From: Anaerolineales bacterium
GTDB taxonomy: Bacteria; Chloroflexota; Anaerolineae; Anaerolineales; Villigracilaceae
Assembly (NCBI GenBank): GCA_016934715.1
Contig: JAFGSI010000031.1
Location: 1 to 64,000 of the forward strand
Length of the DNA: 64,000 nucleotides
Direction: 5' to 3'
Under the pieces are notes generated by a model, which searched no databases, had not been told where the DNA came from, and saw only the letters and a list, made by a program, of their open reading frames with translations. The position numbers and the translations under genes are program-made. Shown here piece after piece: positions 9,315 to 16,103 of this stretch (the first letter of the stretch is position 1; each line of letters opens with the position of its first letter).

Positions 9315-11303
9315 TTATTCTGCCAGCGCCTCCCATTCGTGCATCAATTCCTCCAGGCGCGCCTGCGCCCGGGCGACCTGCCAGCCGAGTTCCTGCACCC
9401 GTTCGAACTGGCTGCTGCCGGCCTTCTGCAGTTCGGCGGAAAGGCGCTTGAGTGTGGTTTCCTGTTGGCGGACGCGCGCCTCGACCTGGTCGAGGGATTG
9501 TTCCCGGCGGCGGGTCTCCCGGCTGTTGTCGCGGGTCAGCGGTTTCGGGCTGAGCAGCAGCTGCCGATCCCGGGCGCTGGAAGCCTGGCTGGCCTTGCGC
9601 AGGACATACTGGCGGTAGCTCCCGTCGAAGATCTCCAGCCGTTCGGCGCAGATCTCCCAGATGCGGGTCGCCAGCTGGTCGATCAGGAAGCGGTCGTGGG
9701 TGACCATCAGGATGGTGCCGGTGAAGTTCTCCAGCACTTCCTGCAGGGCCTCGCGGGCCGGGATGTCGAGATGGTTGGTTGGCTCGTCGAGCAGGAGCAG
9801 GTTGGCGCCATCCAGGGCCAGGATGGCCAGGGCCAGGCGGGCGCGTTCGCCGCCGCTCAGGGCGCGCACCGGCTTGAAGATGTCATCGCCGGTGAACAGG
9901 TAGGAGGCCAGGTAGTTGCGCGCTTGGGCGGGCTGCATGTCCTTGTGACGCAGCAGTTCGTCGAGCAGGCTGTGCTCGCCGTTCAGGCCGTCGTGTGCCT
10001 GGGCGAAGTAGCCGACTTTCAGGCTGGCACCCATGCGGATCTCGCCCTCGAGCGGGGCCAACTGCTCGAGCAGGACCTTCAGGAAGGTGGTCTTGCCGGA
10101 TCCGTTCGGGCCGACCAGGGCGACCCTCTCGCCGCGCCGCAATTCCACTTTCCGGGCTTTGAAGAGCGGGTTGCCGGGATAGCCGACCGTCAGCGCGTTG
10201 ATGCGCAGGACGAAGGTTCCGCTGGGAGGCGCCGCGGGCAGCCGCGGGCGGATGCGCCGTGGGCGGCCGCTGGGCATGCGGATGGCGTTGACCTTGCGGA
10301 TCGCCTCGATCACGTCGAGCGGGCGCTGGGCTCCCAGGTCCATTTCGGACCAGCTGCGGCCGTCGCGCAGGGCCAGGATGCCGTAGGCGTCGACGATGGC
10401 CAGGTCGCGGGTCAGCAGGCGCAGGCGTCCGAGCGCCCGGGCATGGGTGCTGGCCCGGATCCAGTTGCGTTGAATGAAGTCGGCTTCCTTGAGCAGGCGG
10501 GCTTTCTCTTCTTTGAAGACGCGCTCGTAGTACTCCCAGCGCTCCTGGCGCTGGAGCAGGTAGGCACTGTAGTTGCCGGAATAGACGTCGATGCCGTCGG
10601 GCTTCATCTCCCAGATGGTGTTGACGGTGTTGTCGAGGAAGAAGCGGTCGTGGCTGACGATCAGCACAGCGCCGTCCCAATCGCGCAAGGTCCGCTCGAG
10701 CCATTCCACGGCCTCGATGTCCAGGTGGTTGGTGGGCTCGTCGAGCATCAGCAGGTCGGGTTTTTCGAGCAGCAGGCGGGCCAGCAGGGCGCGCGTCTTC
10801 TGCCCGCCGGAGAGGTGGTTGAGCGGCATGTCCCAGGCCTCACGGCCCAGGCCGAGCCCGGTCAGGGTCTGCTGGATGCGGACCTCGTAGTCGTAACCAC
10901 CGGCCCGGTCGAAGGCTTCCTGCAGGCTGCCGTAGGTTTCGAGCAGTGCGTCGGAGACGTTACCGTTTGCCATTTCGGCCTCCAGCGCGTGCAGGCGGGC
11001 CTGCCGCTCCTGCAGGTCGGCGAAGACGATCAGCATTTCGGCGTAGACGGTATTGCTGCGGTTGGCAAAGGCCTCCACCGCCTCCTGGCGCAGGTAGCCC
11101 AGCCGCCGGCCGCGAGCGAGGTGGACCTCGCCGGTGGTCGGGGCGTGGACGCCGGTCAGCAGCAGCAGGAGCGAGGTCTTGCCGACCCCGTTGGGGCCGA
11201 TCAGCCCGATCTTCCCGTCGGTTGGAACGGTGACGGTTACCCGGCGGAACAGGTCGAGAGCTCCGAAGGATAGACTGAGGTTGGATGCGGTCAGGATGGA
11301 CAT
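9315..11303 (-). CDS. ABC-F family ATPase (translation factor or ribosome-protection type)
   Basis: 662 residues, two ABC ATPase domains and no membrane segments, so a soluble ribosome-associated ABC-F protein rather than a transporter. First domain: Walker A GPNGVGKTS (36-44), signature LSGGQKTR near 163, Walker B LLMLDEPTNHLD near 184. A long basic interdomain linker follows (about 230-345), then a second Walker A GPNGSGKTT and signature LSGGERARLAL. A charged coiled-coil-like tail ends the protein. Paralogs act in translation (EttA, Uup) or protect ribosomes from antibiotics (Vga, Msr, VmlR, OptrA); sequence alone does not decide. The leader contains a small ORF and alternative terminator hairpins, typical of the antibiotic-induced group. 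GGAG 8 nt upstream supports the ATG. Confidence 0.9.
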   Translation of the reverse strand: MSILTASNLSLSFGALDLFRRVTVTVPTDGKIGLIGPNGVGKTSLLLLLTGVHAPTTGEVHLARGRRLGYLRQEAVEAFANRSNTVYAEMLIVFADLQERQARLHALEAEMANGNVSDALLETYGSLQEAFDRAGGYDYEVRIQQTLTGLGLGREAWDMPLNHLSGGQKTRALLARLLLEKPDLLMLDEPTNHLDIEAVEWLERTLRDWDGAVLIVSHDRFFLDNTVNTIWEMKPDGIDVYSGNYSAYLLQRQERWEYYERVFKEEKARLLKEADFIQRNWIRASTHARALGRLRLLTRDLAIVDAYGILALRDGRSWSEMDLGAQRPLDVIEAIRKVNAIRMPSGRPRRIRPRLPAAPPSGTFVLRINALTVGYPGNPLFKARKVELRRGERVALVGPNGSGKTTFLKVLLEQLAPLEGEIRMGASLKVGYFAQAHDGLNGEHSLLDELLRHKDMQPAQARNYLASYLFTGDDIFKPVRALSGGERARLALAILALDGANLLLLDEPTNHLDIPAREALQEVLENFTGTILMVTHDRFLIDQLATRIWEICAERLEIFDGSYRQYVLRKASQASSARDRQLLLSPKPLTRDNSRETRRREQSLDQVEARVRQQETTLKRLSAELQKAGSSQFERVQELGWQVARAQARLEELMHEWEALAE

Positions 11304-11332
11304 GGCAAACTCCGTAAAGAGGGTTCAACACC

Positions 11333-11427
11333 AAAAACAAAAGGCCACGGTGTGCCCGCGGCCGGTGGGGGATTGCCTGTCTGGGTTGCGACAAACGAAA
11401 AGGCCACGGGCGGAGTGCACCGTGGCC
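11333..11427 (-). promoter_or_regulatory. Attenuator-like tandem hairpins in the ABC-F leader
   Basis: Read on the minus strand, four 8-nt arms lie in order: A GGCCACGG (11427-11420), A' CCGTGGCC (11409-11402), B GGCCGCGG (11363-11356), B' CCGTGGCC (11350-11343). A:A' is a perfect stem followed by TTTTCGTTT. B:B' is a stem with one G-U followed by TTTTGTTTTT. Both look like intrinsic terminators. A' can pair with B instead, removing both stems, so the set has the layout of terminator/antiterminator/terminator. The second U-tract ends about 30 nt before the ABC-F start codon. Confidence 0.7.
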
Positions 11428-11452
11428 AGATACTATGCGTATAGCTTAGCGA

Positions 11453-11551
11453 TCAGGGGGCGCGCTCCGAGGAGGGAAGGCTTGCGCCACCCGCCAGGAC
11501 ACTCAGGAGGAAAGACGCCTTATTCATGGGAATCGCCATTCTTTCGTTCAT
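11453..11551 (-). CDS. Putative 32-residue leader peptide of the ABC-F gene
   Basis: A complete small ORF on the minus strand: ATG at 11551-11549, stop TGA at 11455-11453. It begins MNERMAIPMNK and continues with a hydrophobic ASFLLSVLAGG stretch. It lies between a promoter and the tandem hairpins, and its stop is 25 nt before the first arm. There is no Shine-Dalgarno, but the -10 ends 8 nt upstream, so it could be translated from a leaderless mRNA. Position and size match leader peptides that sense ribosome-targeting drugs in front of resistance ABC-F genes. Translation is inferred. Confidence 0.5.
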   Translation of the reverse strand: MNERMAIPMNKASFLLSVLAGGASLPSSERAP

Positions 11552-11559
11552 CGGGGACG

Positions 11560-11589
11560 AGTTTATCATGGGTTTCGAGGATGCGTCAA
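11560..11589 (-). promoter_or_regulatory. Promoter of the ABC-F leader transcript
   Basis: Minus-strand TTGACG (11589-11584), an 18-bp spacer and TAAACT (11565-11560). The predicted start of transcription falls at or next to the leader-peptide ATG (11551), leaving about 250 nt of leader before the ABC-F start codon. Confidence 0.5.
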
Positions 11590-11693: not shown

Positions 11694-13298
11694 ATGCCGC
11701 CGATCAAGGATTTTGCCAGCAAGCTGGATGAAATGCTCGCCAGTCTGTATCCCGCCGACAAGCCCGGGGCGGCGGTGATCGTCGCCTGGGGAGGCAAGGT
11801 TCTCTTCCGCAAGGGGTACGGGATGGCGAACCTGGAACTGGGCGTCAGCATCGAACCCGAGATGGTCTTCCGCCTCGGCTCGATCACCAAGCAGTTCACC
11901 GCGGTCAGCATCCTGATGCTCCAGCAGCAGGGCAAGCTGGATCTCCAGGATGACCTGACCCGCTTCCTGCCGGACTACCCGACCGGCGGGCGGCGCATCT
12001 CCGTGGAGCACCTGTTGACCCACACTTCCGGCATCAAGAGTTACACCGACATGGCCGAGTGGCTGCCGCTGTGGCGCAAGGACATGTCCCTCGACGAGTT
12101 GATCGCCCTGTTCAAGGACCAGCCCTTCGACTTCGAGCCGGGCGAGCAGTTCTGCTACAGCAATTCCGGCTACATCCTGCTGGGGGCGATCATCGAAAAG
12201 GTCTCCGGCATGTCCTATGCCGACTTTGTCCAGAAGCACATCTTCGACGCGCTGGGCATGGCCCATTCCTCCTACGATCAGACCGAGCGCATCCTGCCCG
12301 GCCGGGTTGCGGGGTATACCAGGGGGGTGGATGGCTACCTCAACGCCCCCTACTTGAGCATGTCCCAGCCCTACGCGGCCGGGGCGCTGGTATCCAACGT
12401 GGACGACATGGCCAGGTGGGACGCGGCGCTCTACACGGAGGAACTCCTGCAAACGGACCTCCTGGCAAAGGCCTGGATCCCGTTCCAACTCCACAATGGC
12501 GATCCGACCGGCTACGGGTATGGCTGGGCGACGGGGGAATACGAAGGCCTGACCTTCATCGAGCACGGCGGCGGGATCAACGGATTCGCCACCGGCGGCG
12601 TGCGCGTCCCGGCCGAGAAGGTCTACGTGGCTGTCCTGGCCAACCTGGACGTCTCCGACCCTTCGCCGGATATGCTGGCCTTCAAGATCGCCGCCATGGC
12701 GGTCGGTCACCCGGTCAGGGAGCCGGTCGCCATCCAGGTGCCGGCCGAGGTCCTGGCGGGCTACGCCGGCGTCTACCGGATCAACGCCGGCGAGGACCGC
12801 TCCGTGACCTTTCAGGACGGCAGGCTGTTCTCCCAGCGGACGGGCGGGAGGAAGATCGAGTTCATCCCGGTCGGCCCGGACGAGTTCATGGTCAAGGACC
12901 TGCTCGACCGTTTCCTGTTCGTGCGTGATCCACAGGGCAAGGTCACAGGGATGACGGTTCTGCGCCGGATGGGCCTCCCGGAGCGTGCGACCCTGACCGA
13001 CAAGCCGTTGCCCGCCCAGCGCCAGGCCATCGCCCTCGAGCCGGCGTTGCTGGAACGTTTCCCCGGTTCGTATGAACTGGCTCCCGGTTTCGCTCTGGCG
13101 ATCACCCTGGAGGATGGCCAGTTGTACGCCCAGGCCCCCGGTCAGGAAAAACTGAAGCTGTTCCCCGAGACCCCCGGGCGGCTGTTCGCCAACGAAGCGG
13201 ACCTGCATTTCGACTTCCAGTTCGATCCGCAGGGGAAGGTGGCCGAATCGATCCTGACCCAGGGTCCGAGGGTCATGCCGCTGAAGAAGGTCGGCTAG
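11694..13298 (+). CDS. Serine hydrolase, class C beta-lactamase/PBP fold
   Basis: 534 residues. The N-terminal domain carries the three active-site motifs of the beta-lactamase-related serine hydrolases: SITK (63-66), YSN (155-157) and HGG (291-293, in place of KTG). About 190 C-terminal residues form a beta-rich extension with two repeat-like parts, beginning near 350 and 440. No signal peptide is seen, so a cytoplasmic esterase or D-amino-acid peptidase is more likely than a wall-acting beta-lactamase; substrate unknown. The stop is directly followed by the tlyA ATG. A second, differently organised family member lies at 62469. Confidence 0.88.
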   Translation: MPPIKDFASKLDEMLASLYPADKPGAAVIVAWGGKVLFRKGYGMANLELGVSIEPEMVFRLGSITKQFTAVSILMLQQQGKLDLQDDLTRFLPDYPTGGRRISVEHLLTHTSGIKSYTDMAEWLPLWRKDMSLDELIALFKDQPFDFEPGEQFCYSNSGYILLGAIIEKVSGMSYADFVQKHIFDALGMAHSSYDQTERILPGRVAGYTRGVDGYLNAPYLSMSQPYAAGALVSNVDDMARWDAALYTEELLQTDLLAKAWIPFQLHNGDPTGYGYGWATGEYEGLTFIEHGGGINGFATGGVRVPAEKVYVAVLANLDVSDPSPDMLAFKIAAMAVGHPVREPVAIQVPAEVLAGYAGVYRINAGEDRSVTFQDGRLFSQRTGGRKIEFIPVGPDEFMVKDLLDRFLFVRDPQGKVTGMTVLRRMGLPERATLTDKPLPAQRQAIALEPALLERFPGSYELAPGFALAITLEDGQLYAQAPGQEKLKLFPETPGRLFANEADLHFDFQFDPQGKVAESILTQGPRVMPLKKVG

Positions 13299-14132
13299 AT
13301 GCCCAAGATCCGCCTGGACCTGCTGCTCGTCGAACGCGGGCTGGCCGAAAGCCGCGCCAGGGCCCAGGCCTTGATCATGGCCGGGCAGGTTCGAATCGAT
13401 GGCCAGGTGGCTGAGAAGGCTGCCTCGAATGTCTCGAATGAGGCGAAGATCACTGTGGATCAAGGCCCGCGCTTCGTCTCGCGCGGCGGGGACAAGTTGG
13501 AGTCCGCGCTGGCGACCTTCCCGGTGCTGGTCGAGGGGCGCGTCTGCGTTGACGTCGGATCTTCGACGGGTGGATTTACCGACTGCCTGCTCCAGCACGG
13601 GGCGGCAAAGGTCTATGCCATCGACGTGGGCAAGGGCATCCTGCACTGGAAGCTGCGCTCCGACCCGCGCGTGATCGTCATGGAAGAGACGAATGCCCGG
13701 CACGTGGAGTCCCTGCCCGAGCCGGTGGGGCTGGCGGTGGTCGACGCCTCGTTCATTTCGTTGAAGATTTTGCTCCCTGCGATCAAGGGTTGGTTCGACT
13801 TCTCCCTTCTCCCTTCTCACGCAGATCAGAAGGAAGAGCGAGAAGGTAAAAGGGATGTGATCGCTTTGATCAAGCCCCAGTTCGAGGCCGGGCGCAGGGA
13901 GTCGGCCAGGCATAAGGGCGTGATCCGCGACCCGGCGGTCCACCGCGCCGTGCTGCTCGACGTGCTGGCCTTCGCGCAAGAGTCCGGCTTCGGCGTGCGG
14001 GGGTTGGTACGCAGCCCGGTGCTGGGACCGAAGGGGAACGTCGAATTCCTGGCCTGGCTGGAAATGGGGTTCAACGCCGAGGTGGATGTCCAGGTTTTGG
14101 TGGATCGGGAAGCGGGGAAGCCCGATTCGTAG
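13299..14132 (+). CDS. tlyA: TlyA-type rRNA 2'-O-methyltransferase (S4 plus FtsJ domains)
   Basis: 277 residues. An S4 RNA-binding domain (about 1-60, opening RLDLLLVERGLAESR) is joined to an FtsJ/RrmJ methyltransferase domain. SAM loop DVGSSTGGFTD is at 85-95; the K-D-K-E-type residues appear as K66 (GGDKLESA), D149 (VVDASF), K192 and E196 (IKPQFE). Known family members methylate 16S/23S rRNA cytidines, affecting capreomycin sensitivity. Unusually, residues about 167-185 are a charged insertion encoded by a palindromic repeat; in ordinary TlyA the chain runs nearly directly from LPAI to DVIALIKPQ. The frame is intact, so the protein may still function. It follows the hydrolase gene without a gap. 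Confidence 0.87.
   Translation: MPKIRLDLLLVERGLAESRARAQALIMAGQVRIDGQVAEKAASNVSNEAKITVDQGPRFVSRGGDKLESALATFPVLVEGRVCVDVGSSTGGFTDCLLQHGAAKVYAIDVGKGILHWKLRSDPRVIVMEETNARHVESLPEPVGLAVVDASFISLKILLPAIKGWFDFSLLPSHADQKEEREGKRDVIALIKPQFEAGRRESARHKGVIRDPAVHRAVLLDVLAFAQESGFGVRGLVRSPVLGPKGNVEFLAWLEMGFNAEVDVQVLVDREAGKPDS
13797..13853 (+). repeat. Palindromic repeat inserted in frame within tlyA
   Basis: A CTTCTCC-rich arm (about 13800-13822) faces a complementary GAGCGAGAAGG arm (about 13835-13846), with a short spacer rich in GAAGG. CCTTCTCACGC pairs with GCGAGAAGG apart from one extra base. It adds about 19 codons without shifting the frame. This looks like a small mobile palindrome, though only one copy is seen in the window. 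Confidence 0.5.
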
Positions 14133-14150
14133 TGGTCAATCGAGGTGCTC

Positions 14151-16103
14151 ATGTTCCATGGTCGCGGCTGGTCTTCATACATTCGTTCGGGAGATGAAAA
14201 GCATCCCCGGGTGACCCGCGCGCTGCTCCTGCGCGTTCTGTCCTACGCCCGTCCTTATTGGGGGCATATCGGCGGGATGCTGACGATGATCCTGCTTGGC
14301 ACGGGGCTCTCGCTGGTCTCGCCGCTTATCTTCCGCAGCCTGATCGACCAGGTCCTGCCCTCCCGTGATCTCAACCGGCTGGTGCTGTTTGCCGTCGCCC
14401 TGTTGTGTGTGCCGATCCTGAACGGCGGGATCCGCGTCGTCCAGCGGCGGCTCAACGCGGCTGTCGGTGAGGGGGTGATCTATGATCTGCGCGCGGCCCT
14501 CTTCGGCCGTCTCCAGCGCATGTCCCTGCGCTTCTTTACGAATACCAGGGTCGGCGAGTTGATGAGCCGCCTCAACAATGATGTGGTCGGCGCCCAGAAT
14601 GCCATCAGCAATACCATCGTGAATATCATTACCAACCTGATCGAGACGGTCGCCCTGCTGCTGGTCATGGGAACCCTCGAGTGGCGGCTGACGATCATCA
14701 GCGTGTTGATCATGCCGCTGTTCATCCTGGCTGCCCGGCGGCTGGGCACGACCCTGCGCGACATTGCCCGCAGGGGCATGGACCTGAATGCCCAGATGAA
14801 CGCCCATATGAACGAAACCCTCAATATCGGCGGCGCACTGCTCGTCAAACTCTTCGGCCGCGTCCGCGAGGAAGAGGCCCGCTTCCGCACTCGCGCCGCC
14901 GGCGTGCGTGATAATGGCGTGCGCCGTGCCCTGATCGGCTCGACCTTCTTCATGATCCTCGGTCTGGTCAGCGCGGTCGGGACGGCACTTGTCTATGGCC
15001 TGGGCGGCTGGTATGTCATCCAGGGGACCTTCACGGTCGGCACCATCGTTGCCTTTGGGGCCTACCTGGGCCAGTTGTACTCCGCCCTCCAGGGCCTGGC
15101 CACGGCGCCGGTCGATTTCAGCACTTCCATGGTCAGTTTTGAGCGCGTCTTCGAGGTGCTTGACCTGCCATACGATATCCTCGAAAAGAAGGAGGCCCTT
15201 TCCTTGCAGGATATCCACGGCGGGCTTGCGTTCGAAAATGTGACCTTCCATTACAGCGTGGACGAATCCATGCTGCTCAAGGGTGTCAGGCGCTACGGGA
15301 AGATGGAAGACGTGGGGGCGGTCTTCTCGCTGGCCGGGCAAGAAAACGGGATGAAAAGTGTGGAAGGACCGCCCCCGGACTCCGCCGTGAGCGAAGCGGC
15401 CTCCCAGGCGCGGGAAGTCGCCCTGGAGGGGATCTCGTTCGAGGCCCCGGCCGGGAGCCTGGTCGCGCTGGTCGGCCCCTCGGGGGCTGGCAAGACCACC
15501 CTGACCTATCTCATTCCACGTCTCTACGACCCGACGAGCGGCGTCATCCGCCTGGATGGGCACAACCTGCGCGACCTGACGCTCGATTCGCTCTCTTCCG
15601 CCGTCGGCATGGTGACCCAGGAGGCTTACCTGTTCCACGACAGCATCCGCACCAACCTGCTGTATGCCCACCCGGACGCCTCGCAGGCCGAGCTCGAGTC
15701 AGCAGCCCGGACCGCCAACATCCACGCCTTCATCACGGAACTGCCGGATGGCTATGATACGATTGTTGGCGAGCGTGGTTACCGTTTGAGCGGCGGCGAA
15801 AAACAGCGGATCGCCCTGGCGCGCGTGATCCTGAAAGACCCGAAGATCCTGGTCCTCGACGAGGCCACCAGCCATCTTGACAGCGAATCAGAGGCGCTCA
15901 TCCAGGAGGCCCTCAAGCGCGTCATGGCCGGCCGGACGAGCATTGTGATCGCTCATCGATTGAGCACGATCCTGGCGGCAGATCTGATCCTGGTATTGGA
16001 CCGTGGCCGGATTGTCGAGCGCGGCACCCACGGGGAACTACTTGCTCATCATGGGCTGTATGCACAATTGTATGATACGCAGTTCAAGAGGGAGAAAGCG
16101 TGA
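14151..16103 (+). CDS. ABC exporter, fused membrane and ATPase domains
   Basis: About 650 residues. Six membrane segments (about 25-310) are followed by a nucleotide-binding domain with Walker A GPSGAGKTT near 442, signature LSGGEKQR near 546, Walker B ILVLDEATSHLD and the switch His IAHRLST. This is the MsbA/multidrug half-transporter layout; it probably acts as a homodimer. An unusual stretch of about 55 residues (near 369-425) separates the A-loop strand (FENVTFHY) from the rest of the domain, where these are normally about 20 residues apart. ATG 14151 with GAGG 5 nt upstream is preferred over the in-frame GTG at 14145. It begins 18 bp after tlyA. Confidence 0.88.
   Translation: MFHGRGWSSYIRSGDEKHPRVTRALLLRVLSYARPYWGHIGGMLTMILLGTGLSLVSPLIFRSLIDQVLPSRDLNRLVLFAVALLCVPILNGGIRVVQRRLNAAVGEGVIYDLRAALFGRLQRMSLRFFTNTRVGELMSRLNNDVVGAQNAISNTIVNIITNLIETVALLLVMGTLEWRLTIISVLIMPLFILAARRLGTTLRDIARRGMDLNAQMNAHMNETLNIGGALLVKLFGRVREEEARFRTRAAGVRDNGVRRALIGSTFFMILGLVSAVGTALVYGLGGWYVIQGTFTVGTIVAFGAYLGQLYSALQGLATAPVDFSTSMVSFERVFEVLDLPYDILEKKEALSLQDIHGGLAFENVTFHYSVDESMLLKGVRRYGKMEDVGAVFSLAGQENGMKSVEGPPPDSAVSEAASQAREVALEGISFEAPAGSLVALVGPSGAGKTTLTYLIPRLYDPTSGVIRLDGHNLRDLTLDSLSSAVGMVTQEAYLFHDSIRTNLLYAHPDASQAELESAARTANIHAFITELPDGYDTIVGERGYRLSGGEKQRIALARVILKDPKILVLDEATSHLDSESEALIQEALKRVMAGRTSIVIAHRLSTILAADLILVLDRGRIVERGTHGELLAHHGLYAQLYDTQFKREKA

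Follow-up and report, generated by a model that had tools for sequence, protein, structure and literature searches.

The window analysed here, a stretch of 64,000 nucleotides from an Anaerolineales bacterium (Chloroflexota; contig JAFGSI010000031.1), carries on its minus strand a gene for an ABC-F ATPase of 662 aa (9315..11303), assigned with NCBIfam (NF000355) and Pfam models. The protein scores 439 bits against NF000355, a ribosomal-protection-like model with a cut-off of 380 bits, and matches Pfam ABC_tran twice and ABC_tran_Xtn, with its C-terminal domain slightly under the cut-off. The sequence criteria for an ARE ABC-F are tandem ABC domains and a match to a curated ribosomal-protection-like model; the protein has both, and the score against NF000355 bears out the suggestion of a first-pass annotation of this DNA that the gene encodes a putative ABC-F of the ribosome-protection type. 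The closest solved chains by sequence are EttA, YbiT and YheS, followed by a lincosamide-streptogramin A resistance protein, Lmo0919 and PoxtA. A leader sits between the ABC-F gene and a divergent gene of the beta-lactamase family (plus strand, 11694-13298). The plus-strand genes at 11694-16103 encode, in order, this beta-lactamase-family protein with DUF3471, an FtsJ/S4 protein and, at 14145-16103, an ABC exporter; there is no match to the leader model described below ahead of them.

The leader begins with a sigma-70-type promoter, TTGACG-18-TAAACT (11560..11589, minus strand, as are all leader features), in which the -35 element TTGACG (11589-11584) and the -10 element TAAACT (11565-11560) are separated by a spacer of 18 nt. 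The assignment is based on the sequence and on conservation of the promoter throughout the leader family, and a search for sigma-70-like sites between 9000 and 13000 gave this one alone, against 0.4 expected. An ORF of 32 codons, MNERMAIPMNKASFLLSVLAGGASLPSSERAP*, follows (11453..11551; ATG at 11551, TGA at 11453), and is supported by its sequence, by family-wide openness and by a glycine motif, here AGG in the peptide context ...LAGGASLPS. A Shine-Dalgarno sequence (SD) is absent upstream of the ORF, and the ORF is probably leaderless because its ATG lies just 8 nt past the -10 element. The end of the ORF contains arm 2, GGAGCGCGCC (11459..11468), which partners arm 3 in the proposed antiterminator. 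Terminator 1 (T1) is formed by arm A, GGCCACGG (11420..11427), as its 5' strand, recognized by sequence, fold and stem covariation, and by arm A', CCGTGGCC (11402..11409), as its 3' strand, recognized by sequence and fold; its U-tract has the tail TTTTCGTTTGT (11401-11391). Arm 3, GGTGCACTCC (11412..11421), comprises the top of the T1 5' strand and the loop, and is complementary to arm 2 at nine of ten positions, the exception being one C x A. Terminator 2 (T2) consists of arm B, GGCCGCGG (11356..11363), which is also complementary to A', arm B', CCGTGGCC (11343..11350; sequence and fold), and a U-tract with the tail TTTTGTTTTT (11342-11333). The promoter, the 32-codon ORF and the four arms A, A', B and B' had been noted in the first-pass annotation, and a check of the sequence found each of them in place; the location of arm 2 inside the ORF and the short distance from the -10 element to the ATG had not been noted.

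The predicted fold of the whole leader is more stable than that of shuffled sequences (z -2.2; 4 of 200 shuffles equally good), with z -3.5 for T1 alone and -1.9 for T2 alone. Both U-tract hairpins, A:A' and B:B', are terminator-like, as had been proposed, and both are present in the fold predicted for the full leader (11551-11304). In that fold arm 2 is held by the Gly-codon region of the ORF (11492-11474), not by arm 3. The fold predicted for free RNA from 11472 to 11385 is the helix of arm 2 with arm 3 (2:3), and the computed energies are -55.7 for 2:3 vs -53.4 for T1 with T2. When arm 2 is masked, A':B together with A:B' and T1 together with T2 are equal (-53.5 and -53.4). The closest relative of the ABC-F is 82% identical and belongs to locus L001. 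Compared with the leader of L001, the ORF in the window has a one-base difference just before arm 2 (11481-11471, minus strand) that shifts the reading frame of arm 2, so that the ORF ends in ...SERAP* in the window and in ...RSAPVCR* in L001. This difference could reflect true variation or a fault in the assembly.

When such leaders are set side by side, they share a conserved stretch, TCGGAGTGCGCCTGYTGA, where the ORF ends; it is complementary to the loop of T1 and to the upper part of the T1 5' strand. A pattern search of 396 genomes of the class located stretches of this type ahead of other genes, one of them in the genome of the window. The raw 18-base pattern was too loose, matching 213 of the 396 genomes, and a covariance model (R1) was used instead. 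R1 contains the T1 stem only and was built from 34 sequences of hand-picked members; its E-values are rough. The window copy, one of the 34 training sequences, is matched as a whole element at 11394..11477 (minus strand) with 66.8 bits. Matches at E <= 0.01 occur in 218 of 301 genomes sampled from the order, with up to six per genome; when genomes of good quality are considered, the count is 142 of 175. A sample of 400 genomes from the whole phylum gave matches at E <= 1e-4 in 36, all inside the class and 32 inside the order. Rfam has no family at the element when the window is searched at the gathering threshold, and a search of 10 loci with Rfam 15 at E <= 1 gave no match there either. The pattern had no exact match in viral contigs, and the one element searched against plasmids had none. 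One pattern match that is not the element (L139) was dropped, as were 15 of 150 model matches that are identical in sequence to another, and the weakest matches, L179 and L180, were left out of the pairing, promoter and ORF tests. Promoters are a general feature of the family: 125 of 133 elements score at least 9/12, vs 22 of 133 shuffled upstream regions, and most have TTGACA or TTGACG with TAAACT.

The genome of the window has seven R1 candidates. Besides the element ahead of the ABC-F in the window (C51), these include two ahead of ABC exporters (C73 and C87) and one (C1; L176 1695-3087, plus strand) ahead of three successive GNAT-type genes, the third cut by the end of the locus. Two weak candidates (C61 and C35; 34 and 22 bits) precede ABC-F-like genes; the truncated proteins have NF000355 as their best match, with scores under the cut-off of that model. 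The last (C85; L179 1726-2730, plus strand), with a weak and doubtful 24.7 bits, precedes a gene for an RsgA-like ribosome-assembly GTPase. Relatives of the ABC-F were collected from 63 loci, of which 61 were scanned; the leader lies immediately ahead of the ABC-F gene in 14 (L001, L002, L003, L006-L011, L013, L014, L031, L053 and L056), all of which had been used in training the model. Among the remaining loci, L035 has a leader ahead of a gene other than the ABC-F, and the scan found no leader at others, among them L004, L005 and L012, whose proteins are 63-67% identical to that of the window. The leader is also found ahead of ABC-F genes in Anaerolinea thermolimosa IMO-1 and Longilinea arvoryzae KOME-1.

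The 135 distinct elements precede 65 ABC exporters, 24 ABC-F genes (a share inflated by the 14 elements that came from the ABC-F search), 27 GNAT acetyltransferases in two groups (GNAT and GNAT2), nine ABC ATPases, three MFS transporters, three members of a family with no Pfam match and one RsgA-like gene; one case (L212) is unclear, and two have too little sequence. These groups are sequence clusters, of which representatives alone were run against Pfam and NCBIfam. By automatic call, the 95 elements that came from the model scan only lie ahead of 47 exporters, 23 GNAT, nine ABC ATPase, six ABC-F, three MFS and two unknown-family genes, with five other or unread. The gene was chosen automatically as the longest ORF starting within 900 nt, with correction by hand for L172, L176 and L242, and it begins at most 300 nt away in 117 of 132 elements. 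At L212, the gene 284 nt downstream presumably resembles a type I restriction methylase. For the ABC ATPase group, the best NCBIfam match of L144 is drrA, below the cut-off. Most of the genes that follow the leader are thus of a resistance type, and they belong to non-homologous groups. At L133, L204 and L260 the leader is followed by a protein family of about 190-225 aa; the L204 protein has no Pfam match at E <= 1e-5 and no NCBIfam match at E <= 1e-20, and the family is a candidate for a new resistance factor.

A further 40 elements, mostly weaker matches, were obtained after the rules had been fixed, and serve below as a held-out set; some of them closely resemble one another or come from genomes used before. 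All but two of these (38 of 40) match a known gene group within 1.5 kb, a few weakly (<120 bits), and the other two have less than 300 nt of sequence left after the element. Three of the held-out loci match the L133/L204/L260 family best, two of them weakly.

The pairings proposed for the leader were examined across the family. In 98 distinct elements, 99.2% of the cells of the T1 stem are paired, vs 23-57% in slid controls, and all eight pairs of the stem show two-sided change, in 112 cells; these figures come from an alignment that had been fitted to the stem. Covariation of this kind had been put forward by the first-pass annotation as a check on its arms, of which T1 contains A and A'. The T1 hairpin with a T-rich tail is present in 135 of 135 elements and in 40 of 40 held-out ones, partly by construction, as the model contains T1. 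For 2:3, 89.3% of cells are paired, vs 87.4% after shuffling (none of 500 shuffles as high) and 17-52% in slid controls. Two-sided cells number 17, vs 5.5 in shuffled alignments; the control slid by +1 has 16, though it is paired in just 24.9% of cells. In a swap test, in which each arm is paired with its own partner or with those of other elements, own 2:3 pairs have -17.5 vs -16.2 kcal/mol for swapped ones (n = 133; z -8.3; 0/5000), with z of -4.6 in ABC-F members, -3.6 in exporters, -2.4 in GNAT, -2.3 in GNAT2 and -1.7 in ABC ATPases. The held-out set gives the same result (n = 40; z -7.2; 0/5000). Swap tests of this kind ignore relatedness. Among 56 variant arm 2s, pairing is -16.6 with their own arm 3 and -14.1 with other arm 3s; the consensus arm 2 gives -16.8 with those same arm 3s. 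Uncompensated arm 2 variants are found in L162, L173, L231 and L245. Compensation in 2:3 is thus real in these comparisons and imperfect, since the consensus arm 2 pairs equally well with the arm 3s of the variants.

Arm 2 has a second potential partner in arm 1, the ribosome-binding site of the ORF, to which it is complementary in most members other than ABC-F. Own 1:2 pairs again exceed swapped ones (n = 113; z -8.7; 0/5000), with z of -7.4 in exporters, -3.5 in GNAT, -1.9 in GNAT2 and -1.0 in ABC ATPases. By the same test the six SD-bearing ABC-F members have no arm 1 (own -7.3); an upstream match to arm 1 is present in one ABC-F leader, that of L010. T2 occurs in 11 of 22 ABC-F (its absence in the other 11 being by the criteria of this analysis), 14 of 17 GNAT, 8 of 9 GNAT2, 8 of 9 ABC ATPase and 3 of 3 MFS members, and in 1 of 64 exporters. 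In 53 elements that have T2, A' pairs better with its own B than with swapped ones (z -4.4; 0/5000). The first-pass annotation had put forward A':B as a helix mutually exclusive with both hairpins; the overall test favours it, whereas z within classes is just -1.1 to -1.8, and A':B may be regarded as family-wide and more weakly supported than 2:3. Pairing of arm 2 with the Gly region of the ORF was also considered as a general anti-antiterminator and rejected: it reaches -19.4 kcal/mol in the window, but own pairs are no better than swapped ones across the family (z +2.4). In ten elements that were folded, T1 (with T2 where present) is more stable than 2:3 by 0.1-7.3 kcal/mol in nine, and the window alone favours 2:3. 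Enforcing 2:3 yields A':B in L001, L010 and L204 of these ten.

Several observations suggest that the leader ORF is translated. When ORFs were chosen by SD and ATG without regard to frame, the frame of the ATG runs through arm 2 without a stop codon in 109 of 109 elements, vs 35 and 45 of 109 for the other two frames, and in 35 of 35 held-out elements, vs 6 and 10; conservation of the ORF among relatives, another expectation of the first-pass annotation, is thereby borne out. For this test 24 of 133 elements without such an SD and ATG were excluded, and lack of a good SD likewise reduced the sets from 133 to 113 (1:2 and ribosome geometry), from 133 to 120 (Gly) and from 40 to 35 (held-out). 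The window is absent from these SD-filtered sets (109, 113, 120 and 35). Of 22 ABC-F members, seven (one of them the window) start the open frame with an ATG that is 6-10 nt past the -10 element, a distance that is at least 26 nt in the other classes, and the leader ORF of these seven is probably leaderless. All three frames are used for the sequence of arm 2: most members have ...PSRSAPVDR*, many ABC-F members have ...SFSECAC* and a few have ...LLGVRL*. It is thus the RNA more than the end of the peptide that is conserved, and a conserved arrest peptide (RSAPVDR* or SECAC*) was rejected as the common principle, the same RNA being read in three frames. The string 'RSAP' does not occur in the available text of a paper on RAPP-type arrest motifs (PMC12992588).

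What most of the ORFs have in common is glycine in the stretch from codon -9 to codon -5 ahead of arm 2, where it occupies 163 of 600 positions in frame, vs 18 and 33 of the 600 when the frame is shifted. The set of 120 includes seven ABC-F members that have no SD and were added back; for one of these, L227, the start used is a putative one assigned automatically. The motif is present in each frame class (37/100, 121/480 and 5/20), and at least one Gly is found in 102 of the 120 elements. Held-out elements agree: Gly accounts for 36 of 175 codons in frame, vs 4 and 6 in the other two frames, and for none of 371 codons in the rest of the ORF, and 25 of 35 elements have the motif. Elsewhere in the ORFs of the main set Gly is rare (22/1346); this reflects base composition, since the shifted frames are equally poor (7 and 28). 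For the upstream codons of the ORF, pN/pS is 0.86, compared with 0.96 and 0.66 when the frame is shifted, which gives no clear sign of purifying selection. Leaders of the HIRP-subtype exporters (e.g., L131, L184, L230 and L247) have the Gly motif in one of 13 cases and are rich in Arg and Lys (0.155 per residue); they may respond to a different inducer. A macrolide '+x+' motif was considered for these exporters and rejected (2/13 vs 11/107, p 0.63).

The position that a ribosome can take on the leader limits how the switch may operate. The leading edge of a ribosome lies about 15 nt from its P site. For a ribosome that has the stop codon in its A site, the distance from the P site to the first base of T1 is 21-41 nt (median 29) over 113 elements and 31 nt in the window; because T1 starts at least 21 nt past the P site, it remains outside a ribosome on the ORF, and the gap is wider for a ribosome that stalls before the stop. 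Arm 2 is within reach, at or partly beneath the upstream half of the ribosome. Its coverage is often incomplete, a point against the switch proposed below: in frame-1 members the first nucleotide of arm 2 precedes the P site of the terminating ribosome by 18-21 nt, so that arm 2 would be covered only in part, and it lies wholly within -15 to +15 of the P site in 22 of the 113. A ribosome on the ORF can thus cover or expose arm 2, not T1. These distances bear directly on the trigger proposed in the first-pass annotation, in which a drug-stalled ribosome would sit on and mask arm A and leave A':B as the sole antiterminator. A' and B do show real complementarity, better than swapped, and obstruction of a terminator by the ribosome is reported for msrD in the available part of PMC10314930. 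Arm A is, however, out of reach even at the stop codon in all 113 elements measured, and A':B is no general switch, as 63 of 64 exporter members lack T2, yet keep 2:3 and 1:2. We consider masking of arm A very improbable; the class of mechanism, ribosome-mediated attenuation ahead of an ABC-F, was probably assigned correctly, and the trigger was not, because the ribosome misses arm A.

The cue that delays the ribosome could also be of another kind, as the in-frame Gly codons are placed like the control codons of trp-type attenuators, and all four Gly codons are used. The same attenuator might then sense slow translation or the supply of glycyl-tRNA. Such sensing seems unlikely given that the regulated genes that were checked encode exporters, ABC-F, GNAT and MFS proteins and none of glycine metabolism, and that 54 of the 120 elements have a single Gly and another 18 lack it, including 12 of 13 exporters of one subtype. 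Conservation of the arm 2 sequence across three reading frames would suit a 2:3 helix that is a pseudoknot bound by a protein or a drug, with an ORF that just keeps the RNA single-stranded; the openness of the ORF and its in-frame Gly motif point instead to a role for translation, and we give this arrangement only a slight chance. The terminator-like sequence and fold of T1 and T2 would equally befit a gene for a small peptide or sRNA that has tandem terminators and is no switch, merely located ahead of resistance genes. It is hard to reconcile with the matched 2:3 and 1:2 alternatives, or with the presence in most members of non-homologous downstream genes of one functional kind, and it hardly seems credible.

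Taken together, the leader probably belongs to a family of transcription attenuators that sense the ribosome and that are found across the order. This reading is tempered by the predicted fold of the full leader in the window, in which arm 2 is not paired with arm 3, and by the imperfect compensation in 2:3. The sharing of one switch by unrelated genes of resistance type points to an antibiotic that targets the ribosome as the likely signal. In the attenuator that we propose, arm 1 would pair with arm 2 (where arm 1 is present), A with A' and B with B' in the OFF state, which would prevail when the ORF is untranslated or when the ribosome reaches the stop codon and occupies arm 2. In the ON state, a ribosome delayed around the Gly motif, which lies 5-9 codons ahead of arm 2, would not cover arm 2, and arm 2 could capture arm 3 and disrupt T1. 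The released A' could then capture B, which would remove T2 and allow RNA polymerase to enter the gene; the tandem terminators would in this way be disarmed as a chain, by 2:3 and then by A':B. The helix 2:3 overlaps T1 in its top two pairs alone; the two should exclude each other on geometric grounds, given the short linker between arm 3 and A'. Timing and the position of the ribosome must decide the outcome, because T1 (with T2) is the more stable in the nine elements other than the window that were folded. The steps from stalling to read-through are modelled on vmlR (PMC9226507) and bmrBCD (PMC4191407), as far as the available parts of these papers describe them.

We also lean, with less assurance, toward a broader reading of the family. 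Within a single order of Chloroflexota, one switch lies ahead of at least five non-homologous families of resistance type (ABC exporters, ABC-F, GNAT, MFS and the family with no Pfam match, with ABC ATPases as a sixth group), and it may constitute a coordinated translation-sensing regulon that operates without a transcription factor. Its RNA core would be readable in any frame, the Gly motif would set the stall site, and the terminators would be disarmed serially. One conserved RNA would thus predict ribosome-stress-responsive genes in a poorly cultured order, and R1 provides a search model for new resistance genes, the L133/L204/L260 family being an example. The family also allows a test of how a leader peptide and an RNA core divide the work.

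In the trp and his attenuators, 1:2, 2:3 and 3:4 are alternative helices, and control codons precede arm 2. The present leaders resemble them in the logic of alternative helices and in the Gly codons ahead of arm 2. The trp and his systems, which are described in PMC4191407 and PMC9413887 as far as their text was available, differ in that they control amino-acid biosynthesis genes and in that the control codons are those of the product; here Gly codons are conserved, and the regulated genes that were checked are of transport and resistance type. Among the matches listed in the open-license PMC literature, judged by titles and the beginnings of abstracts, there is no report of the leader family, and PMC4833913 and PMC9413887 mention Chloroflexi once each in their available text, which treats other matters. 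The mechanism class is known, and the leader family itself is apparently undescribed.

The same attenuation logic is reported from experiments for vmlR and bmrBCD, in the parts of PMC9226507 and PMC4191407 that were available. With these systems the present leaders share, at the level of sequence, an open short ORF, an intrinsic terminator before the gene and an antiterminator strand inside the ORF. As described in the accessible part of PMC9226507, the vmlR leader of Bacillus subtilis combines a leader ORF, an anti-antiterminator that overlaps the ORF, an antiterminator and an intrinsic terminator ahead of an ABC-F gene, and a ribosome stalled by an antibiotic permits the antiterminator to form. 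Unlike vmlR in that description, the present switch is common to non-homologous families, often has two terminators and occurs in Chloroflexota. The bmrB leader of bmrCD in B. subtilis has a translated ORF, a terminator, an antiterminator and an anti-antiterminator ahead of a multidrug ABC exporter; it differs in that its terminator is inside bmrB and that the text available describes a single locus (PMC4191407). The msrDL leader of msrD is similar in having a leader ORF and a Rho-independent terminator before an ABC-F gene, and differs in that the ribosome stalls on MYLIFM at the stop codon and itself obstructs the terminator, with no 2:3 arm noted in the portion available (PMC10314930). The toiL uORF of E. 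coli, a single uORF that answers several drug classes, is also comparable, and differs in acting through translation and Rho-dependent termination on a toxin-antitoxin target, according to the available text (PMC12121999). The nearest parallel to a shared resistance regulon, WhiB7/WblC, acts through a transcription factor, as outlined in the part of PMC7157823 available, unlike the present RNA switch. Attenuators of resistance genes are described locus by locus in the portions of the literature consulted; here, one conserved RNA is common to many genes.
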